Assembly (NCBI GenBank): GCA_025451895.1 | Contig: JANWJP010000103.1 | Span: 1-41,621, forward strand | Source of the DNA: Robertmurraya sp. | GTDB lineage: Bacteria; Bacillota; Bacilli; Bacillales; Cytobacillaceae | Reading direction: 5' to 3' | DNA: 41,621 nt | Shown: positions 5,597 through 23,884 of the stretch, piece by piece | Position numbering within the stretch: the first letter of the stretch is position 1 | Layout: each line of letters begins with the position of its first letter | Notes under the pieces: model-generated | Told to the model about the DNA's origin: nothing | Database searches by the model: none | The model's input: the letters and a program-made list of their open reading frames with translations, nothing else | Made by a program: the position numbers and the translations under genes

Positions 5597-5690
5597 CGTT
5601 TTCAACTCCTTCCAACAGATGCTCATGCATACTTAAACTATGCAGCGGAACATCGTTCTCAAAGCAGACCGGACATAATGCCCAAGTCAC
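5597..5690 (-). ncRNA. Structured leader of rplS, consistent with an L19 leader
   Basis: Between trmD and rplS the minus-strand RNA can form several compact helices. GAC/GGGC pairs with GUCC/GUC at 5667-5688, GAAC pairs with GUUC near 5650-5660, and a perfect 6-bp hairpin TGCATA/TATGCA lies at 5626-5644 just before the ribosome binding site. Firmicutes carry a known autoregulatory-type L19 leader at this position. I identify it by position and foldability, not by a covariance search. Confidence 0.55.
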
Positions 5691-8221: not shown

Positions 8222-9574
8222 TTAAAAAGGATTAAACGGCATTTTAAATCCGCCTCTTTTTTTGCCTTTTTGCTGCATTCCCGACATTTGTTTCATCATT
8301 TTTTTCATATCTTCAAATTGCTTTAAGAGCCGGTTTACTTCCTGGACAGAAGTTCCGCTTCCTTTCGCAATCCTTCTTCTCCGGCTCGAATTGATAATTT
8401 CCGGATGAGTCTTTTCTTCCTTTGTCATGGACCGGATAATTGCTTCCACATGAGCGAGCTGCTTTTCATCAATTTTTAAATTGTTCAAACCTTTCATTTT
8501 GTTAAAGCCGGGCACCATTTTCAAAAGATCCTCAAGGGGGCCCATCTGGCGAACCTGTCCGAGCTGTTCGAGAAAATCATCAAGAGTGAAGGTGGCGGTC
8601 CGCATTTTTTTCTCCAATTCCTTCGCCTTTTCCTCATCCACAGTGGCTTGGGCTTTTTCAATCAATGTTAAAACATCGCCCATTCCCAATATACGGGAAG
8701 CCATCCGCTCAGGGTGGAAAGCTTCAAGAGCATCCATTTTCTCGCCAAGACCGACAAATTTGATCGGAGTATTTGTTACGGAACGAATGGATAATGCAGC
8801 ACCACCGCGGGTATCGCCATCCAATTTTGTTAATATAACTCCCGTAAGACCGAGCAGTTCGTTAAAACTCTCTGCAACATTAACCGCATCCTGACCGGTC
8901 ATGGCATCGACAACAAGGAAAATTTCATCAGGCTTTGTAACTTCCTTTATTTCTTTTAATTCATTCATAAGCGCTTCATCAATATGCAGACGTCCGGCAG
9001 TGTCAATCAATACATAATCATGATGTTCTTCTTTGGCCTTTTCAACAGCCTGCCTGGCAATTTCTACAGGGCTGACTTTGTCTCCAAGGGAAAAGACGGG
9101 CATATTGAGCTGGCGGCCCAGGGTCTCCAACTGTTTAATCGCAGCAGGACGATAAATATCTGCCGCTACCAGCAATGGTTTGCGATTGTGCTTTTTGCGG
9201 AGCAAATTCGCAAGCTTCCCGGTCGTGGTGGTTTTACCCGCCCCCTGTAATCCGACCATCATCACAACAGTCGGAGGCCGGTTTGCAACGGCAATTTTGC
9301 TTTGTTCTCCGCCCATTAACTCAGTAAGTTCTTCTTTTACAACCTTAATCACCTGCTGCCCCGGCGTCAAACTTTTAAGCACTTCCTGGCCGACAGCACG
9401 TTCGCTTACCTTTTTCACAAATTGTTTTACCACTTTAAAATTAACATCCGCTTCCAAGAGAGCAAGGCGGACTTCCCGCATCATCTCTTTTACATCAGCT
9501 TCAGAAACCTTCCCTTTTCCACGGATTTTTTTTATCGTACTTTGCAGTCGGTCGGCTAATCCTTCAAAAGCCAT
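8222..9574 (-). CDS. ffh: Signal recognition particle protein Ffh
   Basis: SRP54 GTPase that binds signal sequences of nascent membrane and secreted proteins and docks at FtsY. The 450-residue product has the N domain (about 1-90), the G domain with P-loop GLQGAGKTTTTGK, DTAGRLHID and TKLDGDTRGGAALS, and the methionine-rich M domain (GFNKMKGLNN, MKKMMKQMSGMQQ) ending in a basic tail. The SRP RNA-binding segment with SSRRRRIAKGSGTSVQEVN is visible near residue 385. It follows ylxM by 14 bp. Confidence 0.98.
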   Translation of the reverse strand: MAFEGLADRLQSTIKKIRGKGKVSEADVKEMMREVRLALLEADVNFKVVKQFVKKVSERAVGQEVLKSLTPGQQVIKVVKEELTELMGGEQSKIAVANRPPTVVMMVGLQGAGKTTTTGKLANLLRKKHNRKPLLVAADIYRPAAIKQLETLGRQLNMPVFSLGDKVSPVEIARQAVEKAKEEHHDYVLIDTAGRLHIDEALMNELKEIKEVTKPDEIFLVVDAMTGQDAVNVAESFNELLGLTGVILTKLDGDTRGGAALSIRSVTNTPIKFVGLGEKMDALEAFHPERMASRILGMGDVLTLIEKAQATVDEEKAKELEKKMRTATFTLDDFLEQLGQVRQMGPLEDLLKMVPGFNKMKGLNNLKIDEKQLAHVEAIIRSMTKEEKTHPEIINSSRRRRIAKGSGTSVQEVNRLLKQFEDMKKMMKQMSGMQQKGKKRGGFKMPFNPF

Positions 9575-9588
9575 CAGGCACGGACCTC

Positions 9589-9921
9589 CTAATTTAATTT
9601 CTCCAGTTCAGCAACCGCATCAATGAGAGCTTCTCTGGATAATGTTTTTTGACTTAAAATTTCCTTCATGTTGTTCAAAATGGCGCTCCGCTCCTGGAAT
9701 TTTCTAAAAAGGGACAGCTTTTCCTCGTATTCCTCGAGCATTGCTTCCGTACGTTTAATATTATCATAAACAGCTTGGCGGCTGACACCGAATTCCTCGG
9801 CGATTTCCCCCAGGGATAAATCATCAAGATAGTAGAGAGACATATAGTTTCGCTGCTTCGGCGTTAACAAGGATTGATAAAAGTCAAACAAGAAATTCAT
9901 GCGATTCGTCTTTTCCAGCAC
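9589..9921 (-). CDS. ylxM: YlxM, helix-turn-helix SRP-associated regulator
   Basis: Conserved protein encoded beside ffh in Firmicutes. In streptococci it binds the SRP and stimulates GTP hydrolysis; its fold is a sigma-70 region 4-like helix-turn-helix. The 110-residue product begins V(M)[12 protein letters not shown] and has the HTH segment [22 protein letters not shown]. The GTG start has an excellent AAGGAGGG site 7 bases upstream and gives the same length as the B. subtilis protein; the frame runs further upstream through the promoter, which argues against a longer product. In B. subtilis ftsY lies immediately upstream; here it is about 13 kb away. Confidence 0.95.
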
Positions 9922-9963
9922 CGCCCATCCCTCCTTGTTAAGTGAAAAGCCTTTACAAACACA

Positions 9964-9992
9964 AGTGTACACAGTATAAGCAAGCATGTCAA
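9964..9992 (-). promoter_or_regulatory. Sigma-A promoter of ylxM-ffh
   Basis: A perfect TTGACA -35 box (9987-9992) and a TACACT -10 box (9964-9969) are 17 bases apart on the minus strand, with the ylxM ribosome binding site about 35 bases downstream. This promoter explains how ylxM-ffh can be expressed apart from ftsY. Confidence 0.75.
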
Positions 9993-10109: not shown

Positions 10110-12875
10110 TTATTTGTCTCTCCGCCGTTTTGCCTCCAACAGCCGGTGCAATTGCTGCTCCCTCACCTCGATGGACGAACGCTGGTTGTTTTTTTCAGTA
10201 TCCTTCCCTCTCCGTTTCTTTTCTTCATTTCCGGTCCCGGTATCCTTCCGTTGTGCCAGTTGTTCAGTTTTCTCAACAGTCGCCTTCGCTTTGGACTGCT
10301 GCTGAACCGTTTTTCTTATTTCTTTGGCGTTCCTGAGTTCCGTTCTCTGCAGGAAGGCCTTTTCAGTAAAAAACTTCAGACCAAAACGCCGGATCGCAAT
10401 TTCCGTAAAAAACAGCAAAAATGCGGAAAGAAGAAGCCACCGGCTCACAGATTGCTTTTCATAAGCCTTATTTTTGCTTTCCCGGAAAATATCTGCCGGA
10501 TCGGATAATTGCCGGCCTCCAGTTAGTTCCGCCAATTTACTGAGCAATTCCTTATTGGCTTTCTTGAACAAAAATTCCCCGGAATATGGAACAGTAAATC
10601 CTGTTTGAAAAATATTAACGGATCCGTCTTTATGCGTCTGCTTAACATTAAGAAAATATACTCCGCTTCCGTTTGGAACCGTCAGTTCATATTTCCCCGG
10701 TGCAATAAGCTTTGTTTTTACATCCACTTTCTCGCCGTGATCCGACACCAGCGCTGTTTCAACCGGCAATGCTTTATTTCCGGCTGCTTCAAGAAGGATG
10801 ATTGTCTCCCCATTTCTTTTTTCCAAAGAAATATGATAGGGCGTTGTTTGATATCGCGGCAAAATATTTGTGATCATTTTCGTGATAAAGGAAGGCCATT
10901 TTTCCCATCTTGCCCAGTCTCCCGACCATTTTCCCGAAAAATCAGCCGTGAAAGCGGCCGCACGCCCCATTCCATATTGCCATTGCGCATAAACGGGATC
11001 GTCTTTTTCACTAGTGATCTGCAGGTTTGCTCCACCTTTCGGAGTCGTTGCAATATAAGCATTCATCCTCGGAACTCCTGCATCAAACAGACCCTCCCAG
11101 TCTGCAGGGGATGAAACAATTGGATAAAAGGGTTCATCCTCTATATAAGTCCTTGTCGCCATGACGGTCTCACGGGAAAGAATCGTCGGAATGGAGCTTG
11201 TATCCGTTACATCATAAAATCTGCCTGCTCCCGCTTCGGCAAGGGCTTCAAGCAGCGCTTTGTCAGCATCGGCTCCCAATGCGACGGTGGACAGGGTGAT
11301 ATTGTTTTTCCTGCCTTCCTCAATCAATCCGAAATAATCACCGTCCCGCGCCGATTGCCCGTCTGTCAGTAAGATGATATGTTTCCGCTGAAGTTTGTGG
11401 CCGGAAAGGCTATCGTATGCCATGGCCAGGGAAGAAAAGATTTCTGTTCCTCCTCCCGGTCCGACGAAAAGTATTTTTTCAACGGCCTTTTCCTTATTTT
11501 TCAACGGTCCTGTTTCGATAATCACCCATGGACGATCATCAAATGCAATAAATCCCAATGTATCTTCTTCCCGAAGGAGTTCAACAGACCTTGCCGCCGC
11601 TTCCTTGGCAAGCTCAAGTTTGCTTCCGGTCATGCTCGATGACCGGTCCATCACAATGACAAGTCCGAGGGACGGCATCCGTTTCTTTCCTTTAATATCC
11701 ATTTCAACCGGAAGCAGTTTCTCTACAGGAGTTTTAAAATATCCGCCCAAGCCAAAACTGTTTTCTCCTCCGGCCATAACAAAACCTGTACCAAACTCCT
11801 TAACGGCCCTTTCAATCAGTTTCATCTGTTTCTCTGATACTTGGGTTGCAGGAACATTATTAAAAATAATTGCCTGATAGGCCAAAAACCCTGACAAGTT
11901 TGTCGGCAGTTTTTCCGGAGCAATTGTCTCAACTATAAACCCTGCATCTGAAAGAATTTGCCCGGCTCTTCCGTATTCCTCATTTTGCACAAGGAGCACT
12001 TTCGGAATCCCCTCTATATTTGAAACGCGGTAAAAAATATTGTTTTCAATATAAGCATCATTTTCGGCAGAAATTTCCCCTTTATACACAATTAAACCTG
12101 AAGAGGCCGTCTTATGGGAAAATGTATAGAGATTTGTACCTTTCTTGACATTAACCGTCTCTTTTAAAATCTCCCTGTTATTCTCCGAAATTCTAATCGT
12201 TGCTTTTTTGTCGGCATTGCTGTCAATTTGCACCTGAATTCTCGCTTCTTCTCCTTCATACATAAACGCCGGAACCTCAAGTCCGCTAAATGACAAATCC
12301 TCATATTGTTCACTTTCTAAAAGAACATAATCGATCTCAATTTGTTTATTTTTTAACAGGGCAGCTGCATCCAGACTGTTTCCCGCTGTTTCATTTCCAT
12401 CAGAAAGAAGCACAATTCGCCCGTTTTTGTGAGCGGGTATTAAAGAGGCGGCCAGATGTAATGCTTCCTCAATATTTGTTTCATTTGCGGAAACTGCTGT
12501 CCGGAAATCGGAAATAAGGGCAGAATCTTTGCCGGTCTGTTGCTCAACCAGAGCGTTTTCCCCGAAAGCTATAATGGCGTATGAGTCTTTGCCGTTTTTG
12601 TTTTCCACCCCTTTTTCAATCCAATCTAAAGACGTGCCCTGCTTGCTTTCCACACTTTTTGAGCGGTCAACCACAAAAACTACCGTTTCTCCCTGAACAG
12701 GCCAAAGTATTTGCGGCACAGTCAGAGCAGTGATCAGAAGAATATATACGCATGTTCTTAATCCGGCAATAACATAAGCCTGCTTTCCCCTGTTTGCCTT
12801 CAAATAAAAAAAGACAGTTATTCCCGCCGGAATCAGCAATAAGAACAAAAACGGAAACTTAAATTCTATACCCAC
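10110..12875 (-). CDS. Membrane protein with two VWA domains and a GATase-like domain
   Basis: Function unknown; last gene of the MoxR/VWA operon. The 921-residue product has two N-terminal transmembrane segments (about 6-24 and 34-54), then a first VWA domain from about residue 63 with a MIDAS motif (VVDRSKS, later LLSDGNE). A beta-rich stretch is followed by a glutamine-amidotransferase-like alpha/beta domain (about 290-390, with FVMAGGENSFGLGG). A second VWA domain from about 404 has a full MIDAS (VMDRSSSM, GGGTEIF, LLTDGQS). A transmembrane helix near 811-831 leads to a highly charged cytoplasmic tail of about 90 residues. Start: GTG with a GGGAGGTG site 7 bases upstream, overlapping the preceding gene by 17 bases. 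The domains should lie outside the membrane, by inference. No clear terminator follows. Confidence 0.85.
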   Translation of the reverse strand: MGIEFKFPFLFLLLIPAGITVFFYLKANRGKQAYVIAGLRTCVYILLITALTVPQILWPVQGETVVFVVDRSKSVESKQGTSLDWIEKGVENKNGKDSYAIIAFGENALVEQQTGKDSALISDFRTAVSANETNIEEALHLAASLIPAHKNGRIVLLSDGNETAGNSLDAAALLKNKQIEIDYVLLESEQYEDLSFSGLEVPAFMYEGEEARIQVQIDSNADKKATIRISENNREILKETVNVKKGTNLYTFSHKTASSGLIVYKGEISAENDAYIENNIFYRVSNIEGIPKVLLVQNEEYGRAGQILSDAGFIVETIAPEKLPTNLSGFLAYQAIIFNNVPATQVSEKQMKLIERAVKEFGTGFVMAGGENSFGLGGYFKTPVEKLLPVEMDIKGKKRMPSLGLVIVMDRSSSMTGSKLELAKEAAARSVELLREEDTLGFIAFDDRPWVIIETGPLKNKEKAVEKILFVGPGGGTEIFSSLAMAYDSLSGHKLQRKHIILLTDGQSARDGDYFGLIEEGRKNNITLSTVALGADADKALLEALAEAGAGRFYDVTDTSSIPTILSRETVMATRTYIEDEPFYPIVSSPADWEGLFDAGVPRMNAYIATTPKGGANLQITSEKDDPVYAQWQYGMGRAAAFTADFSGKWSGDWARWEKWPSFITKMITNILPRYQTTPYHISLEKRNGETIILLEAAGNKALPVETALVSDHGEKVDVKTKLIAPGKYELTVPNGSGVYFLNVKQTHKDGSVNIFQTGFTVPYSGEFLFKKANKELLSKLAELTGGRQLSDPADIFRESKNKAYEKQSVSRWLLLSAFLLFFTEIAIRRFGLKFFTEKAFLQRTELRNAKEIRKTVQQQSKAKATVEKTEQLAQRKDTGTGNEEKKRRGKDTEKNNQRSSIEVREQQLHRLLEAKRRRDK

Positions 12876-14637
12876 GTCTGAACACCTCCCACTCGGCCGC
12901 AATCAGTGCCAAAGCAAGCAAGGACAGCCAAAACCAGATTTGGTCATGATAAATGATGTCCTTTTTATTTATATTTTCCTGAAACTTATTAACCGTAAAA
13001 GCCTTTTCCGTGACCGGACTTTTTTCCCTGTCATCGAGGATGACCGAAAAATAATAAATGGTTTCTCCGGCAACAGCTTGATACACGCCCGGTTTTTGAG
13101 GGGCACGGAAATTTTCCGTTTCCGGGTTCACGGTATAAAGATGTTCATCCCTGTCATTATAGATCGCCCATGACAGTGATTTACCCCCTGCATTCAGCCA
13201 TTTTTCTTCTCCCGGTTCAAAAAATCCCTGAAAATGCGGCGGCTGTGATAGCCACTGGTAAGCGTTATATAAGAAAATTGGAAAACTTGGTTTTAATGGC
13301 CAATCTGAATCGGATAGTGAAAAATTAACAATGATTATTGGCTGGCCATTATAGATGCCTTTTTCAATTAAAGGGACGGAACCGCTTCTTAAAACCGTCT
13401 GCAGCGGTTGATCGGCTTTTAAAGCCTTTGTTGCCTGATAAATATAAATATTTTCATAATCCACATACTGAAGCAAAGCATCCTTATCTCCCGAAAAAGA
13501 AACTGTCAAAGGGATTTTCTCCGTTCCCGAATTAAATAGAATCACAGGTTGTGAAGGCAAATGATCCATATCTGCCGTTTCCAGCAGAAAAATTCCTTTT
13601 CTCCCTTCAACTGCTGACCCGGCATCCACCTGAAATACCTCTGTTCCAATCGTTTGAAACCCTTTAATCAGAAAGGGATTCAAATTTCCAAGCGCATAAA
13701 CAGGCGGATTGGATTCCATAAGAACAGAAGTGAGCCGGTTATCTGTTTCATAGCCGTCATCGGCAAGAATAACCGCTTCATAATATGGTTTTTCAGGCAA
13801 TGAAGGAATCTCGACGACCAGCTGCCCGCGGCCGGAAATCGTCAAATTCTTCTTAAATAACGGCTTCCCTCCGGTGCTTTGAATTAAAAATTCTGTTGTA
13901 ACTTCTTTAGTTGACTGATTTTCAATAACAGCAACCCCGCTTATTTCTCCGTTATATTTTGCAGCGCCGAATGAAAGCAAAGAAAGATTATTGACTTCCG
14001 TCCCGATATTATGTACCTCAATATATTGATTTTTTGGTGCTCTTACCAAATCATCTTTTGTAACAGAATCAGAAAAAATATAGATGGCGGAATTATCGCC
14101 TGAGGCGAGAGAATAGGCGAGTTCAAGAGCCTTCCCGATCGCATCGTAATTATATGTCAACTGCACTGCCTCAAGTTTCTTTTTTAACAGGGCCTTGTCC
14201 GATTCCCCGCTTATAAGAATTTCCGGCCTCTCTCCCGTTTGAATAAGGGTTACTTTTTGGCCGCTCACTTTGTCCAGCAACGCTGAGATTGCCTTTTTGG
14301 CTTCATCAAAACGCGTTGACTCTTCATACTCCGCCGACATCGTTGCGGAAGTATCAATAATGAAGATTACATGATCACCCTTTAAATCCTCTGTTACCCA
14401 ATATGGCCGTGCGAGAGCCAGCATAAGAAACAGCAGGGCAAAAATCTGCAGCCAAAACAAAAGATTCTTTTGCAGTTTCTTTAAAAACGGGGAAGCCTGC
14501 CACTCATTCCGGACCTCAACCCACAGCATATTGGAGGATATTTTTTGCTCCTCGTACCGTTTTCGGAAAAAATAAAATAATACAACGGCGGCCAGGAAAA
14601 AGCTTAATAATAAAAACCACGGATTCAATAATTGCAC
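12859..14637 (-). CDS. BatA-like membrane protein with VWA domain
   Basis: The 592-residue product resembles aerotolerance BatA-type N-termini: two transmembrane helices (about 8-26 and 62-77) linked by a short basic loop and ending in LALARPYW. A VWA domain follows at once (about residue 90 on) with the metal site motif IIDTSATM. Its middle is beta-rich, and a final transmembrane helix lies at about 566-584, followed by EWEVFRRGYR. The layout mirrors the next gene, with which it overlaps by 17 bases, suggesting that the two VWA proteins form a complex. The GTG start has GAGGTGAGG upstream. A 140-bp gap with a hairpin separates it from the DUF58 gene. Function unknown; metal-dependent binding of partner proteins is the family expectation. 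Confidence 0.85.
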   Translation of the reverse strand: MQLLNPWFLLLSFFLAAVVLFYFFRKRYEEQKISSNMLWVEVRNEWQASPFLKKLQKNLLFWLQIFALLFLMLALARPYWVTEDLKGDHVIFIIDTSATMSAEYEESTRFDEAKKAISALLDKVSGQKVTLIQTGERPEILISGESDKALLKKKLEAVQLTYNYDAIGKALELAYSLASGDNSAIYIFSDSVTKDDLVRAPKNQYIEVHNIGTEVNNLSLLSFGAAKYNGEISGVAVIENQSTKEVTTEFLIQSTGGKPLFKKNLTISGRGQLVVEIPSLPEKPYYEAVILADDGYETDNRLTSVLMESNPPVYALGNLNPFLIKGFQTIGTEVFQVDAGSAVEGRKGIFLLETADMDHLPSQPVILFNSGTEKIPLTVSFSGDKDALLQYVDYENIYIYQATKALKADQPLQTVLRSGSVPLIEKGIYNGQPIIIVNFSLSDSDWPLKPSFPIFLYNAYQWLSQPPHFQGFFEPGEEKWLNAGGKSLSWAIYNDRDEHLYTVNPETENFRAPQKPGVYQAVAGETIYYFSVILDDREKSPVTEKAFTVNKFQENINKKDIIYHDQIWFWLSLLALALIAAEWEVFRRGYRI

Positions 14638-14707
14638 TGAACCTCACCTCATTTATTCCCGGGACAACAGTGCGTCACTTCTAAAAAAGTGCCGGTATTT
14701 CCCCTCA

Positions 14708-14744
14708 TTGACGGGAAGGTGAAATCTTCCCGTCAAACTTTTTT
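14708..14744 (+). terminator. Hairpin inside the MoxR/VWA operon with the U-run on the plus strand
   Basis: Perfect 11-bp arms TTGACGGGAAG (14708-14718) and CTTCCCGTCAA (14726-14736) around 7 bases, followed on the plus strand by six T (14739-14744). In the plus direction this is a textbook intrinsic terminator, yet all neighbouring genes are on the minus strand. Read on the minus strand it has no U-run and may instead protect or pace the mRNA. Which role applies is not known. Confidence 0.6.
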
Positions 14745-14777
14745 ATCAAATAAGAAACTATCTATTTATGCCTGATG

Positions 14778-15644
14778 TTATTTAAGCAGGCCTAATCTTG
14801 GAAGTTTATGTAACAACAAAGTTTCCACCGGTTCATCATCCGCCGCCAAAATATAGGCGCCGCCGTAACGCCGGCAAATCATTTCAAGATTTTTGTTATG
14901 CTCCGCCAGCCGTTTTTCATAGTCCCGCAGCAGGGAAGGATGCATGCTTATATTCACACCCGAGTCTGTTTCAATATCAATCAATCTGACATCTCCTTCA
15001 TACCCGGGTGAGAGTTCCTCCCTGGACAACACTTGAAAAAACCAAAATTCCTGCTTTAAAGAAGCGATTTTTCGCAAAAGCGCTTCAATCCTCTCCAGAG
15101 GTTCAAGGCCATCGGAGATCATAATCGTCAGCTGTTGTGTTTTGGATACTGTGTTATAAAGCTGATTTGAAAAATCATCCAGTTTCTCCGTTTCTTCAAG
15201 CTGCAATATTTCCAGGAAAACCCCGCGGCTGTTCACCGCCCCTTTCCTGTGAATCGGCCTTGGTGAACGGGATCCTGCAGGCATAAAAGCCAGTCTGTCT
15301 TCTCCGGCCAAAACCACGTAACCTAAAGAAGCAGCCAATGTTTTCGCCATCTCCCATTTTGAAGGAATGAACCTCATGGAAGAACTGACATCGAAATAAA
15401 TTGCGACCGAAATATCTTGTTCATCAAGATACCGTTTAATATAATACTTCTGTGTTCTGCCATATACATTCCAATCAATCTGCCTTACGTCATCTCCGGG
15501 CTGATACTGTCTGAAATCGGAAAATTCCAGAGACGACCCGAATTTTCCCGAGCGCCTGAGACCTTTATGGATTCCTCTCTTTTTTGTTTTTACATTTATC
15601 TTTAATTTTTGCAGCCGGTTTAAATAAGTCTGGTGATGATTCAT
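14778..15644 (-). CDS. DUF58 domain protein
   Basis: The 288-residue soluble protein carries the DUF58 signature: RRSGKFGSSLEFSDFRQYQP, GDDVRQIDWNVYGR and YYIKRYLDEQD, followed by a VWA-like fold starting IYFDVSSSM. DUF58 proteins are nearly always encoded next to MoxR ATPases and VWA proteins, as here, and are thought to work with them as an assembly or chaperone module. The exact substrate is unknown. ATG start; 12 bp downstream of the moxR stop. A predicted N-terminal membrane anchor, seen in some DUF58 proteins, is absent, so this member is likely cytoplasmic. Confidence 0.9.
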   Translation of the reverse strand: MNHHQTYLNRLQKLKINVKTKKRGIHKGLRRSGKFGSSLEFSDFRQYQPGDDVRQIDWNVYGRTQKYYIKRYLDEQDISVAIYFDVSSSMRFIPSKWEMAKTLAASLGYVVLAGEDRLAFMPAGSRSPRPIHRKGAVNSRGVFLEILQLEETEKLDDFSNQLYNTVSKTQQLTIMISDGLEPLERIEALLRKIASLKQEFWFFQVLSREELSPGYEGDVRLIDIETDSGVNISMHPSLLRDYEKRLAEHNKNLEMICRRYGGAYILAADDEPVETLLLHKLPRLGLLK

Positions 15645-15656
15645 AAATACTCACTC

Positions 15657-16649
15657 CTATAGAGCGGTTTTATCCAGTATTTCCGAAATGATTTCATCAG
15701 CGGAAATACCCCTTGCTTCCCCTTCAAAATTCAAAATGAGGCGGTGCCTTAGAACAGGAATTGCCGTCTTTTTAATATCTCCCGTGGACACATTGTATCT
15801 GCCCATACAAAGAGCCCTTGCCTTTGCAAGTTGAATCAGACTTTGCAAACCGCGCGGACCGCTGCCGAATTGGACAAATTCCTTTACCATCGGCGAAGCA
15901 TCCCCTGATGCCGGGTGAGTGGCGGAAATAATCCGGACTGCAAATTCCAGGATATCTTCGGAAACTAAAATTTCCTTAACAAGATTTTGTAAACGGAGAA
16001 CATCCTCTTTATCGGCAATCGAATTCAGGACGATTTGATTGCTTCCCGTTGTTCTGATTGCAATTTCTTTCAATTCCTCGTTTGAAGGATATCCGACAAG
16101 GACTTTGCAAATAAAACGGTCCATTTGCGCCTCTGGAAGAGGATATGTGCCTTCCAAATCTATCGGGTTTTGTGTAGCAAGGACAAAGAATGGTTTTTCC
16201 ATTGCTTTTGTCTCCCCCATCACCGTGACCGTTTTTTCACCCATTGCTTCAAGAAGAGCGCTCTGTGTTTTCGGAGTAGCCCGGTTAATCTCATCAGCAA
16301 GAATAATATTTGCAAACAGGGGGCCTTTGTGAAAAACAAATTTCTGTTTCCCCTGTTCATCCGTTTGCAATATCATGGTTCCGGTAATATCCGCCGGCAT
16401 CAGATCCGGCGTAAATTGAATTCTTGAAAAATCAAGACTTAAACAATTTGAAATCGTTTTAACAAGCATCGTCTTACCCAAACCGGGCAAGCCCTCCAAG
16501 AGGACATGCCCACCGGCAAGAATACTCCACAATACCTGATCAATTACATCTTCCTGCCCGACAATAAAAGTTTTGATCTCTTCTCTCACTTGATTAATCA
16601 TATCGCGGGCAGACAGGAACTCCTGCTCTTTTTCTTTCAATGACGACAT
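15657..16649 (-). CDS. MoxR-family AAA+ ATPase
   Basis: AAA+ ATPase of the MoxR family, which typically acts with VWA proteins to remodel or activate partner proteins. The 330-residue product shows Walker A GLPGLGKT (about residue 50), Walker B IILADEINR, sensor 1 in VLATQNP, the PEAQMDRF segment and the lid domain with ATHPAS and GPRGLQSLIQLAKARAL. I chose the ATG giving M-S-S-L-K-E-K, about 10 bases after a GGGAG site; an upstream in-frame GTG sits inside that site. It begins 8 bases after the preceding stop and is followed by DUF58, the standard MoxR-DUF58-VWA order. Confidence 0.95.
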   Translation of the reverse strand: MSSLKEKEQEFLSARDMINQVREEIKTFIVGQEDVIDQVLWSILAGGHVLLEGLPGLGKTMLVKTISNCLSLDFSRIQFTPDLMPADITGTMILQTDEQGKQKFVFHKGPLFANIILADEINRATPKTQSALLEAMGEKTVTVMGETKAMEKPFFVLATQNPIDLEGTYPLPEAQMDRFICKVLVGYPSNEELKEIAIRTTGSNQIVLNSIADKEDVLRLQNLVKEILVSEDILEFAVRIISATHPASGDASPMVKEFVQFGSGPRGLQSLIQLAKARALCMGRYNVSTGDIKKTAIPVLRHRLILNFEGEARGISADEIISEILDKTAL

Positions 16650-16657
16650 TCCAGTTC

Positions 16658-18223
16658 TCACTCCCTGTTCGGATCAATATTTGAAAAATAAAATTCTACC
16701 ATTTCCTTGAGATCAGACGGCAGAGAGTACCGGTTTATGCTCTGCCTGTATGAGCGTTCATATTGCTGATAGACTTCGTCATAATGCATAAGCGTTCCTT
16801 TTACAACCGGGCCGCTCCCCTCCGTCCCGGATACATGGCTTCCTTCACCGAGCGGACCGCCGTCTGTTTCCATATTTTCGCCACCGCCGACTCTCTCAGG
16901 AACGGTAACAAATTCCCGTGAACCCTGACCTAAACCTGCACCTGTGCCACCGGTGCCGCTTCCATGTCCGCCGGAACCGTTTCCTTGTCCCCCGGCGCCT
17001 GAACCTGTTCCGCTATTATTTCCTCCGCTGCCGCTCTGTGAACCGCCGCTTCCGTTTCCGTTGTTATTTGTTCCCGGATCTTGACCGTTTTGCCCGGAAG
17101 ATGATCCATTCTGATTGTTTTGCTGTCCGCCCTGATTATTCTTTTCTCCCGATGATCCGGGTCCAAATGCAAACTGTGACGGCGGCATCCCGTTTTCGAT
17201 CATTTCCTGCTGTAAATTTTTGCCCGTCTCAGAAATACCGGAATGTGCCGCGGCAAGCTGTTCAATTTTCTCAGGGGACTTCAAGGCCTCTTCAATCTGT
17301 CTAAGAAGCCGGGCAAGTGTATCCTCATCAAATTTTCCATCTGTTTCCGAGAGATTGTTTAGCGCTGTTTGTTGTTCCGCGCTCAATTCATGGCGGTTTT
17401 CATTTAATTTTCGTAATTCCTTTTCAAGTTTTTCTAAATCTTTTTTATCAAGCAATTCTGCCAGTTCATTTAATCCGTTTTTAGACAATTCCTTTTTCCA
17501 ATTTTCCAGAGCGAGTTGCTTTTCTTTTTCCTTAAGAAGTCTCAATTCAAGATTTTGCATCTGCTTTTCCAGTTCCCGCAAAAACTTTTCCGGATCCTTT
17601 TCTTTTTTCACTTCCTGTAATGCCTCATTAAGAAGTTTTTTTGAATCAGGATCTGTTTCCTCATGTACTTTCTTCTTCAATTCTTTTGAGGCCTCTTTTA
17701 CAAGCCGGATTTCTGTCTCTCTTTGTGAGGCAGTTTTCATATTCTCTTCAGCAATTGTAAAACTCAGTAAAAAAGAAACAAGAATAAGAACGGCACCCGC
17801 TCCAAGCAATTTATAATCCGGAAAATATTTTTTCCGGTTTTGAACCTGAATGTGGACCTTTTTCATTTCGCCGACAGCATCGGCAAGCTGCAATTTTTCC
17901 ATCGTGCCTTCATTTTCCTTATAAGCGAATGCGGTGAGCACCCTGTCATCGCTTACATAAGAATTGTAAAGACAGGCAGCCTCATATAGATCAGGCTTTT
18001 TCCTCCAAATCCGAAAAATAAAAATGCCAATCAACCCTGCAGCCAAAATCAGAAAATAATAGCGCAAGAACGGGATGACAATAAAAGATGCCGCAAGAAG
18101 CAGGATAAAAGAAGCAGCTCCTGCTCCCATAAACAGGAACTGGAGCTCTTTAAAAATAAGCTGTAAAAGCAACTGCTTCCTGACCGTTTTTAAATAATGA
18201 ATAAATTGCTGCTTTTCTCTCAT
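16658..18223 (-). CDS. Membrane protein with coiled coil and Gly/Asn/Ser-rich segment
   Basis: No recognised function. The 521-residue product has two adjacent transmembrane segments (about 30-52 and 54-72) and a third near 139-158. A long charged coiled coil covers about 165-330 (many Glu, Lys, Leu). A low-complexity stretch of about 90 residues, rich in Gly, Asn, Ser and Gln, runs from about 350 to 440. A conserved-looking C-terminal tail contains YDEVYQQYERSYRQSINRY. Similar membrane proteins with a flexible segment accompany MoxR clusters. I prefer the ATG (M-R-E-K-Q-Q-F), 8 bases after AGAGGG; a GTG three codons earlier overlaps the permease stop. It may be a scaffold for the ATPase and VWA proteins, which is inference. 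Confidence 0.8.
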   Translation of the reverse strand: MREKQQFIHYLKTVRKQLLLQLIFKELQFLFMGAGAASFILLLAASFIVIPFLRYYFLILAAGLIGIFIFRIWRKKPDLYEAACLYNSYVSDDRVLTAFAYKENEGTMEKLQLADAVGEMKKVHIQVQNRKKYFPDYKLLGAGAVLILVSFLLSFTIAEENMKTASQRETEIRLVKEASKELKKKVHEETDPDSKKLLNEALQEVKKEKDPEKFLRELEKQMQNLELRLLKEKEKQLALENWKKELSKNGLNELAELLDKKDLEKLEKELRKLNENRHELSAEQQTALNNLSETDGKFDEDTLARLLRQIEEALKSPEKIEQLAAAHSGISETGKNLQQEMIENGMPPSQFAFGPGSSGEKNNQGGQQNNQNGSSSGQNGQDPGTNNNGNGSGGSQSGSGGNNSGTGSGAGGQGNGSGGHGSGTGGTGAGLGQGSREFVTVPERVGGGENMETDGGPLGEGSHVSGTEGSGPVVKGTLMHYDEVYQQYERSYRQSINRYSLPSDLKEMVEFYFSNIDPNRE

Positions 18224-18228
18224 CCTCT

Positions 18229-19074
18229 TCACCCTCTTTGCATATTGGGACGAAGCTTTTTAATACTAATCACCATAGATGCCGCCGCAATAATCGTATA
18301 GGAAATAAGAAAAGCCGCCCATAAGGGAAAATGAATCCCTGTGTATTGCGTCAGTTCATCATTGAAAGAAGGTTCAAGAACAGAAATCAACACAAAAAAC
18401 GGGTTCAACATGGCCGTAAAGTAGGGAAACGGAAAAAACCCGCTCACATTGCCGCCGTAATAACCATAACTTATTTCCGATAACAAAACTGTCAGGAAGG
18501 TCGTCCCTCCGGTCAAAAATAACAAAATGCTGTATGCCGTCACCATGGCAATGATCGTTCTGCGGATGAGGGTAGAGACCAGCACCCCGATAGTTCCAAA
18601 AGTAATAATGGAAAATAGATAAAACCCTGCCGTGATGAAAAATTGCCCGGGCGAAATACCGCCGAATAAAAAGACAATGCTGTATAACGGAAGGCTGGCA
18701 GCGATTAACAGCATTAAATAAGCAACAGAGGAAACGAGCTTGCTTACAATAATACTTGTCGAGCTTTGTGTCGTTGTGAGCAATATATTCAGTGTTTGCT
18801 TTTCCCTCTCACTGCTGATGACGCCGGCTGTTAAGCCCGGTGTAATAAACAGAACCAGCCCCAGTTGAAGCGCTGAAAGAAACATAAACATTTCCCGGCT
18901 TGCACTGGGTCTGAAAAAATTCTGTCCATATGCAATTGTTTCAATAAAAATAAACCCGATAATGATCAATCCGAGGGCAAGCAGGTAAAATAATATCCCC
19001 AAATAGCTCTTAAAAGAACGGAAACGCAGGGTAAGTTCCTTATTTAATACCGGATTTAATGTAAAATTTTTCAT
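18229..19074 (-). CDS. ABC-2 type transporter permease
   Basis: Membrane subunit of an ABC transporter, 281 residues with about six predicted transmembrane helices. It has the ABC-2 pattern NPVLNKELTLRFRSFKSYLG at the N-terminus, then GVISSEREKQTLNILLTT, the amphipathic coupling segment of the NatB/ABC-2 group. Its start overlaps the ATPase stop by four bases (ATGA), so the pair is translationally coupled and surely one transporter. The substrate cannot be read from sequence. The setting suggests export or membrane handling of something used by the VWA/MoxR proteins encoded in the same operon. Confidence 0.92.
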   Translation of the reverse strand: MKNFTLNPVLNKELTLRFRSFKSYLGILFYLLALGLIIIGFIFIETIAYGQNFFRPSASREMFMFLSALQLGLVLFITPGLTAGVISSEREKQTLNILLTTTQSSTSIIVSKLVSSVAYLMLLIAASLPLYSIVFLFGGISPGQFFITAGFYLFSIITFGTIGVLVSTLIRRTIIAMVTAYSILLFLTGGTTFLTVLLSEISYGYYGGNVSGFFPFPYFTAMLNPFFVLISVLEPSFNDELTQYTGIHFPLWAAFLISYTIIAAASMVISIKKLRPNMQRG

Positions 19075-20003
19075 GAAAGACTTGCCCCCTTTGTTATTTC
19101 CATGAATACATCTTCCAAATTTGCTTTCTCTTCTGAAAAACTGATAATCTGAAGATCTTGCAAAACAGCTCTTTTTAACAGTTCCATCTGTTCCTCTTCT
19201 GTCCCACGATAGACAAACTGCAACGAACCTTTTTCCATTTCCGTCAGTTTGGAAACAAACGGATCATCCTCAAAAAAGGAAATCACTCTCTTCGCTTCAC
19301 CCAGGAACTTTACCACAATAGTCCTTTCCTGATGAAGCATTGCCTGAATTTCGGAAACGGAGCCTTGCGCAATTAACCGGCCGTGATCTATGATTCCTAT
19401 GCTGTCGCACATATCGGCAAGCTCCGGAAGAATATGGGAGGAAATCAAGATCGTCTTTCCCATGGTTTTCAATTCTTTTAGAATTTCCCTCATTTCCACT
19501 CTTGCCCGCGGATCCAAACCGGAAGCGGGTTCATCGAGAATCAGAACCTCAGGGTCATGAATCAGACTCCTGGCCAAACATAACCGTTGCTTCATTCCCC
19601 GTGACAATAAATCAACATAAACATCCTTCTTGTGGGACAAATTTACGAGTTCAAGAAGCCTGGGAATCAGTTTCTGCCGTTCCTGATAAGGAATTCCGTA
19701 GCTTGCCCCGTAAAAATGCAAATACTCGGATGTTTTTAATTGATCATAAACCCCGAAAAAATCAGGCATGTAGCCGATTTGTCTCCGCACCGCTTTTGTA
19801 TCCTTTTGAATATTATAACCGTTAATAAAAGCAGTGCCGGAAGTGGGGGCCAAAAGAGTGGCAAGAATCGAAAAAGTTGTTGATTTTCCGGCTCCGTTTT
19901 GCCCGACAAATCCAAAAACAGTCCCCTTATTGATTTGTAAGTTTAAAGAATCAAGAGCTGTAAATTTTCCATATTTTTTTGTTAACTCAATTATTTCGAT
20001 CAT
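19071..20003 (-). CDS. ABC transporter ATP-binding protein
   Basis: Cytoplasmic ATPase of the ABC-2 transporter encoded next to it; 310 residues. Visible motifs are Walker A GQNGAGKST (about residue 35), the Q-loop region near IGYMPDF, signature LLSRGMKQRL (a variant of LSGGQ), Walker B VLILDEPASGLD and the H-loop in ISSHILPEL. The C-terminal extension of about 90 residues matches the CcmA/NatA/DrrA type. The start overlaps the upstream gene's stop by four bases. The signature deviates from LSGGQ (LSRGM), as is common in this subgroup. Confidence 0.94.
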   Translation of the reverse strand: MIEIIELTKKYGKFTALDSLNLQINKGTVFGFVGQNGAGKSTTFSILATLLAPTSGTAFINGYNIQKDTKAVRRQIGYMPDFFGVYDQLKTSEYLHFYGASYGIPYQERQKLIPRLLELVNLSHKKDVYVDLLSRGMKQRLCLARSLIHDPEVLILDEPASGLDPRARVEMREILKELKTMGKTILISSHILPELADMCDSIGIIDHGRLIAQGSVSEIQAMLHQERTIVVKFLGEAKRVISFFEDDPFVSKLTEMEKGSLQFVYRGTEEEQMELLKRAVLQDLQIISFSEEKANLEDVFMEITKGASLS

Positions 20004-22384
20004 GATTCCACCTCCCCTTTAACCGTAATTTCAGGGACTACCAATGGCATATCGTCTTCTGTATTTTTATTAATTTTAAAAACAATCTCTCCATTTTCAG
20101 AAATATAATTGCCGGCTTGATTCTCTTTCGTCAATTTCAAAGATGGTTTACCGCTCTCCAGTAGCATATATTCGCCTGTTTCCCAATTAAAAATCGAAAA
20201 TTCAATGTCAGCTGAATTTCTCAATAAAATATTAATACTTTCAAAAGTAACCGGTTTTCCTTCCAAATCCCCGGGGAAGGTAAGAATGAGCTCATACTCT
20301 CCATTATCAATCCATATCTCTTCCCGGTATTTGTCCATTTCCCGATTATAATAATTACCGCTCAAATCTTTTACTTTGATTTCAAACATATCAACTGTCA
20401 GAGCGAACTGACCTGTTATTTCATTCTTTACGGTTAAAGGAGCCACAATTAAATTCCAGTTATTTTCTTTTTGTTTTTTATTAACAAGCTTCACGTCGAT
20501 TACAGAATCAGCAGTCACTCCTCCAATAAAAGGCTTATTCTGCTCATTTGTGCTGTCTGTAAAAAGAAGTGAGGCTGCAGCAGTTTCAAGGCGTTCCTTT
20601 TTAAATTCTTCAAGATCATCATGATCATAATAGTGACTTCCGGAAAGCATCTCCGGCCGGAAAAGAAATTTTTGTGTTATTTTTTTATCAATCTTTTTCT
20701 TTTCTCCCTGCTTCAATGAACCAAGATCAATTTTTGTATTTCCTGACCATATAAAGACTTCATCAAAATCATAAGGAAAACGGTTTTCGATCACTCCGGT
20801 CAGTTTGCCGTTTTTCAGGGTCAAATCTGTGAAGAAGCTGCCATCATTGTATTTTTGAGCTTTTCCAAACACTGTTTTCGCAGACCAGTAAGGAACATCC
20901 TTAAAAATGATCTCAGATGTTTTTCTTTTTTCTTCGATTACACCGGCCATCTCCATATTACGGTCAAAAGTATCGAATGTGCTGGAAATAACTAAAAATT
21001 CCCCTTTTGGAACAGATAACCGGTAATTCCCGCTTTTATTGGACAACATCGTTGTTGCTTGCCAGCCTGATAAATATTCATCTGTCATCTGATAGACTCC
21101 CATTTGATTAAGCTGAGGGCGGGCAATCCGGTCTTTGGCCCCAAAAGCAAATACACCCAAAGCTGTCAATAATCCGACGGAAGGAATAATCCACCAGGTA
21201 TACTCGCGTTTATCGATTTTCTTCAGTAAAAGGTATAAAACGGGAACAATCAGAATGATATAGACGAGCATCAGGACGATTAGCACAGGAAGGCTGTATT
21301 GCGAAAAAGGAAAATATTCATTCGGCTCTCCGAGTTCCCTGTACAAATGGTAGTAAAAATCCTCCATGGGCCAGTACCCGGTGGAAGTTGAAACCGTTAC
21401 GTTTTTAAGCAAGTCCTCAAACCATAACCTGTATCCATCCCATGCAGACAAAGGCTGATCCCCGAGTGAAAAAGCCGTCTGCAAAATGAGCCCTTCACCA
21501 TAGGTTTTTTTAATTATTGCAGGGAGTCCGTTGCTTTCAGCCAAAATTTCTGCTTCCTTATCCACTTCTCCTGTAAAAAGAAGAATAGTTCCAAACGGAA
21601 TTTGTTTTCCGGATGTATCCAAGAACCCGGCGCTTCCTGTATGTTCCGACTCCGGTTTCATAGGCAATAATGAATGTAGTGTCCCGTAAATTCCTTTTCC
21701 GTCCGGCGCTCCGCCGGCAAATAAGGTTCCGCCTGACTGTATCCAGTCTTTAATGGCCTGCTGCTGGCTTTCCGTCAACTGTGACAGCGGATATTCGTCT
21801 ATTATTATATAATCTATCATTTCCAACCCCTGTGCTTCTTGAGGGATTTCTTCCTTTTTCAAAGGAATGATGTCAAAATTTGATGACGATAAGCCGCGGA
21901 GCTCCTTCAACCGGTCATAATTCTCACTGAGAACACCAATCGTTTTATAGTCGCTTTCGATAAATTTAGGGGTTAATTTTTTGTCCCCGCTAAAAGCAAC
22001 TTCCTTTCCTTTCATCCAGTCTCCTTCGTATAAACGGATCATCTTCTGATTTTGAAAATAAGCCGAACTATTATTAGTCAATCCCGGTAGAGTAATCGAA
22101 TAAGTTTTTATTTCATTTTCCGGCAGTTCAATATGTATTTTCTTCGAACCGCCGGCATAATCCGACGGCACATAATCGATCAGCAAGTCACCGCTGAAAG
22201 CCTTGCCGTGATTTTCGACTTTTATAATTACGGGAAAACCTTTGCCATTTTTTACTTTCCCGTCAAAACCGGGTTTAACAGTAATTTGAATCTTTCCCTG
22301 TTCTGCACCGGCGTGTTCAACCGGCCATAAAAAAACCAATAAAAAAACACCAATTAAAACGAAAAGTCTTAAAACCTTCGCCAC
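20000..22384 (-). CDS. Large exported membrane protein, first gene of the MoxR/VWA operon
   Basis: Function unknown. The 794-residue product has an N-terminal signal or anchor sequence (about 3-26, ending near HAGAEQG). An extracellular beta-rich region follows, then a GATase-like alpha/beta segment (YIIIDEYPLSQL, SGGTLFAGGAPDG at about 190-230). Two transmembrane helices lie at about 363-389 and 396-416, followed by a long C-terminal ectodomain. Start: the GTG has GAGGAGG 8 bases upstream. A TTG seven codons earlier sits at the predicted transcription start, so it cannot be used from that promoter. The stop overlaps the ABC ATPase start by four bases. It likely works with the transporter and VWA proteins at the cell surface; this is inference from context. 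Confidence 0.82.
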   Translation of the reverse strand: MAKVLRLFVLIGVFLLVFLWPVEHAGAEQGKIQITVKPGFDGKVKNGKGFPVIIKVENHGKAFSGDLLIDYVPSDYAGGSKKIHIELPENEIKTYSITLPGLTNNSSAYFQNQKMIRLYEGDWMKGKEVAFSGDKKLTPKFIESDYKTIGVLSENYDRLKELRGLSSSNFDIIPLKKEEIPQEAQGLEMIDYIIIDEYPLSQLTESQQQAIKDWIQSGGTLFAGGAPDGKGIYGTLHSLLPMKPESEHTGSAGFLDTSGKQIPFGTILLFTGEVDKEAEILAESNGLPAIIKKTYGEGLILQTAFSLGDQPLSAWDGYRLWFEDLLKNVTVSTSTGYWPMEDFYYHLYRELGEPNEYFPFSQYSLPVLIVLMLVYIILIVPVLYLLLKKIDKREYTWWIIPSVGLLTALGVFAFGAKDRIARPQLNQMGVYQMTDEYLSGWQATTMLSNKSGNYRLSVPKGEFLVISSTFDTFDRNMEMAGVIEEKRKTSEIIFKDVPYWSAKTVFGKAQKYNDGSFFTDLTLKNGKLTGVIENRFPYDFDEVFIWSGNTKIDLGSLKQGEKKKIDKKITQKFLFRPEMLSGSHYYDHDDLEEFKKERLETAAASLLFTDSTNEQNKPFIGGVTADSVIDVKLVNKKQKENNWNLIVAPLTVKNEITGQFALTVDMFEIKVKDLSGNYYNREMDKYREEIWIDNGEYELILTFPGDLEGKPVTFESINILLRNSADIEFSIFNWETGEYMLLESGKPSLKLTKENQAGNYISENGEIVFKINKNTEDDMPLVVPEITVKGEVES

Positions 22385-22413
22385 CCCATACTCCTCCTCT
22401 GCCAAAATCTCCT

Positions 22414-22441
22414 ATTATAATAGACGAATACGTCAGGTAAA
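22414..22441 (-). promoter_or_regulatory. Probable promoter of the MoxR/VWA operon
   Basis: A perfect TATAAT (22414-22419) lies 16 bases downstream of a weak TTTACC (22436-22441) on the minus strand, in a strongly AT-rich region. Transcription would begin near 22407, leaving a leader of about 23 bases before the GTG. This supports the operon being an independent unit separate from smc-ftsY. Confidence 0.55.
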
Positions 22442-22666
22442 AGGTTTGCTTTTTTTAAAATTTTTAGTAAATTATGTCACAATTTTTCGGAAATACAGAA
22501 ATGCTTTCTTTTTTAAAAAGGCTTTGCAGATAAAAAAAATGAAAAAAATATGTTTGAATTTTGTGATTAAGACAACCTTTTAATTTCAATTCTATGCCCG
22601 CAGCCCCGCAGCGGCACATAATTCTGAAATCAGTTAAATCCCGTCATTCCAAGCTTTTAAATACCG

Positions 22667-22700
22667 AAAAAAAGCATGGCATATCTCGCTGCCATGCTTT
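22667..22700 (-). terminator. Intrinsic terminator after ftsY
   Basis: Perfect 10-bp arms AAAGCATGGC (22671-22680) and GCCATGCTTT (22691-22700), followed on the minus strand by seven U. It stops rnc-smc-ftsY transcription about 190 bases after the ftsY stop and insulates the MoxR/VWA operon. Confidence 0.93.
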
Positions 22701-22888: not shown

Positions 22889-23884
22889 TTATTCCGCCGC
22901 TGAATCTTTCTCAATTAGGTCAGCAAAAAGTCCGTACACATATTGCTCCGGATTAAATTTCTGCAGATCATCCATTTTTTCACCCAGACCGACGAATTTC
23001 ACAGGGATTTTCAGTTCATTGCGAATAGCAAGAACGATTCCCCCTTTGGCCGTTCCGTCAAGCTTTGTTAAAACGATGCCCGTGACATCTGTAGCTTCCT
23101 TAAACGTTTTTGCCTGTACCATGGCATTTTGTCCTGTTGTTGCATCAAGAACAAGGAGCACTTCATGGGGAGCACCGGGAACTTCCCTTTCGATAACCCG
23201 CTTGATCTTTTCAAGTTCCTTCATTAAATTGACTTTATTTTGTAAGCGGCCGGCTGTATCACATAATAACACATCAACATTTCTGGACTTAGCGGCATGA
23301 ATCGCATCAAACATTACCGCAGCCGGGTCAGAACCGGGACCCTGTTTGATTGTTTCTACGCCAACTCTTTCACCCCATACTTCCAACTGTTCGATCGCAC
23401 CGGCGCGAAAAGTGTCACCTGCTGCCAACAGAACTTTTTTTCCTTCCGACTTATATTTATGTGCCAGTTTGCCGATTGTTGTGGTTTTTCCGACACCGTT
23501 TACTCCGACAAACAGGATCACTGTCAAACCTTCTTTTGCCATATTCAACTCAGCCGAAGTATTGTCCCCCTGCTGATAAATTTCCACAAGCTTTTCAGAG
23601 ATGACACTTTGGACCTCTGCCGGGTCTTGAATATTTCTTTTTTTGACCTCCAACTTCAGAGCATCAATCAATTCCATTACTGTATGAAATCCCACATCAG
23701 CTCCGATCAATATTTCCTCAAGTTCCTCAAAAAAATCCTCGTCCACCTTGCGATAGCGGGCTACAAGATCATTTACGCGCCCGGCAAAACTGTCCCGGGT
23801 TTTTGTCAAACCCTCCTTAAATTTTTCCGTTACAGAACTTGTTTGCTTTGAAATTGTTTCCTTTAACTTCTTAAAAAAACTCAT
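22889..23884 (-). CDS. ftsY: Signal recognition particle receptor FtsY
   Basis: SRP receptor GTPase that docks Ffh-ribosome complexes at the membrane. The 331-residue product has the charged N-terminal region, an N domain and a G domain with [34 protein letters not shown] and [10 protein letters not shown], ending [14 protein letters not shown]. It has no long acidic A domain, as is usual for Bacillus FtsY. ATG start; it follows smc by 14 bp in the conserved rnc-smc-ftsY order. The next gene in B. subtilis, ylxM, is displaced here. Confidence 0.98.

Follow-up and report, generated by a model that had tools for sequence, protein, structure and literature searches.

What does a MoxR-DUF58-VWA gene set do when it shares one operon with an ABC transporter? 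Such sets are widespread and, to our knowledge, nearly all of them lack a known substrate. The window analysed here, a 41,621-nucleotide stretch of Robertmurraya sp. DNA, was originally predicted to hold an eight-gene MoxR/DUF58/VWA/ABC operon between ftsY and ylxM-ffh. The ORF list of the window indeed contains eight co-directional minus-strand ORFs in the 10110-22441 region between these genes, and profile searches found the domains that had been named (Table 1).

Table 1. Features of the operon and its flanks in the window, in the order of transcription.
Feature	Position	Strand	Evidence or remark
ftsY (flank)	22889-23884	-	ORF, flank annotation
ftsY terminator	22671-22700	-	terminator scan
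ECF-sigma-type promoter AAC-N17-CGTCTA	22421-22446 (AAC 22446, CGTCTA 22426-22421)	-	
Gene 1, ectodomain protein	20000..22384	-	ORF; without Pfam match
Gene 2, ABC ATPase, DrrA/GldA-like	19071..20003	-	PF00005 1.2e-29
Gene 3, ABC-2 permease, 6 TM	18229..19074	-	PF12679 (ABC2_membrane_2) 27.6 bits
Gene 4, 3-TM coiled-coil membrane protein	16658..18232	-	ORF, topology
Gene 5, MoxR AAA+ ATPase, cytosolic	15657..16661	-	AAA_3 1.5e-62
Gene 6, DUF58, cytosolic VWA-type, MIDAS DVSSS	14778..15644	-	PF01882 2.7e-29
13-bp hairpin in 140-nt DUF58-VWA1 gap	14708-14736		terminator-like on + strand
Gene 7, BatA-type membrane VWA protein, VWA outside	12859..14637	-	PF07584 2.2e-15, VWA_2 6.9e-16
Gene 8, VWA2 (VWA x2 + GATase1-like)	10110..12902, real start ~12875	-	
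Promoter-like site before ylxM-ffh	9992-9964	-	
ylxM (flank)	9589-9987	-	ORF
ffh (flank)	8222-9574	-	ORF

The tight packing ascribed to the operon holds for most junctions, with 4-nt overlaps at every junction of genes 1-5, a spacing of 12 nt between MoxR and DUF58, and an overlap of genes 7 and 8, but not between DUF58 and the first VWA gene, which stand 140 nt apart. Gene 1 likely starts at the GTG at 22384, which has a strong RBS, replacing the TTG at 22405. The predicted terminator of ftsY is real. In the gap between the operon and ylxM, a search for a terminator found none, so read-through into ylxM-ffh is possible. Elsewhere in the window, at 5616-5656, we noted an L19 ribosomal protein leader (Rfam RF00556, 52.2 bits).

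The eight genes behave as one inherited unit. Profiles of genes 1 and 7 matched the identical 50 of the 151 genomes of the window's family, spread over 12 of its 25 genera. Across a sample of 300 genomes of the phylum, gene 1 was found in 48 and gene 7 in 43, and both together in 33 against about 7 expected if they were independent; the corresponding p of ~1e-23, which is not corrected for relatedness, is an overstatement because the sampled genomes are related. A search with the DUF58 protein led to 34 loci, and ORF mapping showed that Bacillaceae loci, Paenibacillus oceani and a Chloroflexota MAG (L033) share the full set of eight genes in an unchanged order. All 43 full-set loci, which take in a Paenibacillus, distant Bacillota and one Chloroflexota MAG, are co-linear, with recurrent 4-nt and 17-nt overlaps. 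Likewise, separate trees of the ABC and MoxR halves have 20 of 26 splits in common, compared with 0.16 for shuffled labels, and their two supported conflicts both fall among distant loci. This co-inheritance rules out an accidental grouping of the eight genes.

In Lederbergia sp. (L026:13036-16624), an inserted stretch interrupts gene 8, and in Peribacillus asahii (L015:12615-15368) the gene reads as two ORFs, which possibly reflects decay of the operon. Two records, Pseudomonas sp. ISL-84 and Paenibacillus sp. FSL R5-0490 (L025; L008), hold Cytobacillus-like operons and look misnamed.

The position of the operon had been described as an insertion by comparison with B. subtilis, and this point of the original prediction did not stand. 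We located ftsY in all 151 family genomes and found 48 of the 50 family operons 185-8540 nt downstream of it; the remaining two are an operon on a separate contig and that of G016, which lies elsewhere in a genome with an intact ftsY-ylxM-ffh. The three flanking genes are contiguous in all eight operon-less family members examined. The ftsY site is therefore inherited at the family level and old, B. subtilis is one of many operon-less lineages, and the patchy presence of the operon within genera points to losses. A mobile or recent insertion within the family is ruled out by the 48 of 50 operons at ftsY and by the empty site in other members; a plasmid search returned only distant DUF58 proteins, all below 60% identity. 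The expectation that the set moves together at varied loci fails within the family, where the inherited ftsY site means that it does not move freely, but applies in other lineages: the Fredinandcohnia, Litchfieldia and Lederbergia loci carry the operon at places other than ftsY, and in distant Bacillota it stands beside unrelated genes such as polA, purA, comA and yqeC. Among these distant Bacillota loci, we found no recurrent conserved neighbour that could hint at a function.

The two halves of the operon are nevertheless separable, since each occurs without the other. Genes 1-3 stand without the MoxR half at six loci (L073, L074, L076, L080-L082), which indicates that the ABC half is able to work without MoxR. 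At the two of these whose upstream genes were scanned, L073 (841-6977) and L082 (1081-7296), an ECF sigma gene and a PD40 beta-propeller gene precede the ectodomain protein, the ABC ATPase and the permease, so that the ABC-half-only form is again tied to ECF control. Conversely, L030 and L036 hold the MoxR half only, and some Chloroflexota and Myxococcales loci consist of the MoxR-DUF58-VWA core only. The genome of the window itself has, on contig C162 (L002), a second MoxR-DUF58 pair with a MoxR 44% identical to that of the operon, which we take to be probably of the yeaC-yeaD type of B. subtilis.

What the encoded proteins may form was approached through domains, topology and structure models. 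On the basis of hydropathy and charge, three whole proteins (MoxR, DUF58 and the ABC ATPase) are predicted to be cytosolic, as are one loop each of gene 4 (65 residues) and gene 7 (33 residues) and the gene-8 tail; every other large part of the eight proteins is predicted to lie outside the cell. Genes 1 and 4 of the window matched no Pfam family. By the same topology prediction, gene 1 runs from a signal peptide through an external CARDB-like and GATase1-fold domain to two TM helices, joined by a short cytosolic loop, and external C-terminal beta domains. Its AlphaFold model (mean pLDDT 82.6) places a beta domain, a GATase1-like domain, two TM helices and further beta domains in this order, with the GATase-like STM1381 and STM3548 as best PDB matches; among 20 gene-1 homologues, 17 matched DUF7408 and five DUF4350 (best 1.6e-4). 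Gene 4 comprises a conserved cytosolic loop, an extracellular coiled coil, a Gly/Ser-rich linker and a conserved C-terminal motif; no known domain could be assigned to it, its Pfam matches being at chance level and its PDB matches low-complexity only. The solved structure nearest to MoxR is 2r44 (E 9e-110). DUF58 has no TM helix and keeps the first Asp and last Ser of its DxSxS MIDAS in 25 of 25 sequences.

Gene 8 is ordered as an N-terminal BatB-like VWA, a beta domain, a GATase-like domain, a last TM helix and a disordered tail. In its model (mean pLDDT 80.5), the GATase-like parts (~316-408 and ~611-677) flank a second, nested VWA. The tail ends in RLLEAKRR, and the motif RLLxAKxR is conserved after a highly variable linker. 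Among the 1649 ORFs of the loci, it closes 35 gene-8 proteins and one gene-8 fragment and nothing else; it is missing from some gene-8 proteins. In 25 diverse sequences, the Asp/Ser/Ser of the VWA-domain MIDAS is nearly invariant, and the GATase regions of genes 1 and 8 have no conserved Cys, which rules out an active glutamine amidotransferase. Of the surface machine that had been proposed, the ABC pair, the two GATase-fold ectodomains and the VWA MIDAS sites are supported, but the GATase folds are without their catalytic Cys. Altogether, topology and the two structure models predict a machine outside the cell whose GATase folds are inactive and whose VWA metal sites are intact.

The best functional clue, putative control of the ECF/sigma-M type, had been overlooked. 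A promoter of the operon's own is present upstream of gene 1, as expected, but an ECF-type reading suits it better than the sigma-A match that overlaps it at 22441-22414. The latter was rejected: it matches 10/12, but two such sites were found in the region against 1.7 expected. In 23 of 43 loci, the window included, the sequence AAC-N16/17-CGTC[TA]A occurs no more than 220 nt upstream of the operon, where its frequency in the rest of these sequences would predict 0.07; since many matches come from close relatives, 23 is not a count of independent events. Paenibacillus oceani and four distant Bacillota loci are among the matches, and 20 of the 43 loci are without the motif as written. A second motif, TG[TA]AGGG-N17-CGTCTA, with the same -10 and a different -35, precedes the operon in eight of the 43 loci (L004, L006, L010, L020, L022, L023, L027, L091; 0.01 expected) and perhaps belongs to another ECF sigma factor.

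The company that the promoter keeps points in the same direction. In the operon's own genome, the stringent motif is found at two places, before this operon and 244 nt before spx, a count that alone proves nothing because a reversed control pattern gives four matches. In 20 relatives, AACTTTN13-14CGTCTAT gave 40 matches against 21 for the reversed control; of the 40, 13 precede this operon and 10 precede DUF1002 (YpuA) genes, and a rodA-type and an LtaS-type gene have one each. The ltaS-type gene yfnI is under sigma-M control. In B. subtilis, sigma-M recognizes a -10 consensus CGTC and has promoters at rodA and spx (PMC6827917; PMC6057675), and YpuA, likewise under sigma-M control, marks a block in the membrane steps of wall synthesis (PMC5343580). 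The operon thus resembles the B. subtilis sigma-M regulon in its -10 CGTC promoter, common to spx-, rodA-, ypuA- and ltaS-type genes, but the model organism itself, which has no BatA-family protein, is without this operon. The genome of the window encodes a SigM-family sigma factor (150.7 bits, cut-off 147.95), and SigW and SigX are present too. The open frame of the SigM-family gene (L109, own genome C111) is missing its N-terminal part, perhaps through an assembly error. No self-regulated sigma gene carrying the operon motif was found in this genome. From promoter sequence, we infer that sigma-M, over other ECF sigma factors, may drive the operon; because the promoter preferences of these factors overlap, this assignment is provisional.

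Considering gene content, co-inheritance and order, predicted topology, the VWA metal sites, the GATase loss and the promoter motif with its company, all of which are read from sequence, we tentatively favour a wall-facing membrane machine, induced by a sigma-M-type ECF sigma factor when wall synthesis is disturbed and serving envelope upkeep or remodelling, and we give this reading somewhat less than an even chance. Upon such a disturbance, the sigma factor would induce the operon. The ABC ATPase and permease would then spend ATP on shifting or straining the large ectodomain protein, in the way that has been suggested for GldAFG, the coiled-coil protein would extend into the wall via its Gly/Ser-rich linker, and the BatA-type and double-VWA proteins would grip extracellular partners through their MIDAS sites. 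Since genes 7 and 8 have their VWA domains outside, MoxR-DUF58 would reach these proteins only via cytosolic handles. In the cytosol, a MoxR ring that uses DUF58 as VWA adaptor, much as NorQ uses NorD, would grip the handles of the complex, mainly the conserved tail of gene 8, and the result would be assembly, reset or dismantling, with a net role in envelope maintenance or remodelling during wall stress. MoxR rings work together with VWA partners: in NorQD, the VWA finger of NorD enters the NorQ pore, the NorD C-terminus touches NorQ, and a linker is put under strain by the ring (PMC13036017; PMC9976466). By analogy, DUF58 would be the natural MoxR partner in this operon, and the conserved tail of gene 8 is our guess at the best candidate handle for the pair. 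We also infer that MoxR would cooperate with the ABC half. The fuller proposal, namely that ABC and MoxR motors act in one transmembrane complex of Bacillota and some Chloroflexota, deployed by an ECF sigma factor under wall stress and gripped by MoxR-DUF58 at RLLxAKxR, we hold a little more doubtfully still.

Several other functions may be proposed. The operon could encode a system for secretion or for export of surface proteins, of the kind proposed for archaeal arCOG01314, in which the ABC half drives export or release and the VWA proteins provide an external platform. The vWA proteins and MoxR of the operon, together with an ectodomain that may be of the GldG-like/DUF4350 type, are the ingredients of the systems of Makarova et al. 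2015 (PMC5898192), which unite a GldG-like membrane-anchored flavodoxin-like ectodomain protein, a secreted vWA and MoxR in one operon; a dedicated ABC ATPase and permease, DUF58, a BatA-type protein and a coiled-coil wall protein are not described in the parts consulted, and the archaeal Ig/S-layer partners given there are absent from the eight-gene operon. Gliding Bacteroidota likewise combine, in GldAFG, a DrrA/GldA-like ATPase, an ABC-2 permease and a large ectodomain protein, and loss of gldG impairs secretion in Flavobacterium (PMC5682007). Gene 2 is GldA-like and gene 3 has weak similarity to GldF, but both miss the NCBIfam cut-offs (249 bits against 402.6 for GldA TIGR03522; 24.9 bits, far under 288.5, for GldF TIGR03518), the GldG model gives no match, and the linkage to MoxR and VWA proteins is a further difference; the ABC half resembles GldAFG in composition only. 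Moreover, a cargo or S-layer gene is never recurrent beside the operon, and its neighbours in distant Bacillota are unrelated. We consider export unlikely, though it is the strongest of the competing readings.

The MoxR half suggests other parallels. A maturation chaperone like NorQD, CoxDE or MxaR, with MoxR-DUF58 inserting metal into or remodelling one membrane enzyme and the ABC half being an unrelated, co-regulated transporter, would agree with the way MoxR-VWA pairs of known function act (PMC13036017; PMC9976466), and with the occurrence of the two halves apart. As in NorQ-NorD, the MoxR gene here stands beside that of a cytosolic VWA-type candidate partner with an intact MIDAS; DUF58 takes the place of NorD, however, no enzyme gene recurrently linked to the operon was found, metalloenzyme linkage included, and across two phyla the halves stay in one order and have congruent trees. 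This makes such a chaperone rather improbable, and MoxR-DUF58 probably has membrane proteins of the operon itself as its clients. A Bat-type stress (aerotolerance) module is more improbable again: MoxR, DUF58 and a BatA-type VWA do follow in the Bat order, and the first VWA of gene 8 has a BatB fold, but this BatB-like fold inside gene 8 is all that is present beyond BatA, none of the eight proteins matches the BatC/D/E models, gene 8 has a GATase-like domain with a nested VWA, and the ABC half is an addition. Furthermore, deletion of bat in Leptospira had no oxidative phenotype (PMC3557215). Finally, MoxR scores 47.9 bits against the bpMoxR profile (cut-off 27 bits), which recalls the MoxR-vWA ternary systems of conflict and defence, but a beta-propeller is found in none of the eight proteins, the operon has no effector gene, PADLOC gave no specific match, and the long vertical inheritance at one site also argues against defence, which we regard as highly improbable.

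The wall-facing machine thus remains our preferred reading. Its parts are known, and the eight-gene combination and its regulation appear undescribed: in the open-access literature, we found no description of this ABC-coupled, ECF-controlled form. In this operon, two ATP motors may serve a single surface complex, which makes it a compact example of such a pairing, and the likeness of its promoter to the switch of cell-wall-repair genes is the first testable functional clue. With a fixed eight-gene unit and a predicted wall-stress promoter, the question of the MoxR-DUF58-VWA substrate becomes testable in cultivable non-model Bacillaceae. If our reading is true, the sigma-M response of these bacteria would extend beyond the set known from the operon-less B. 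subtilis.
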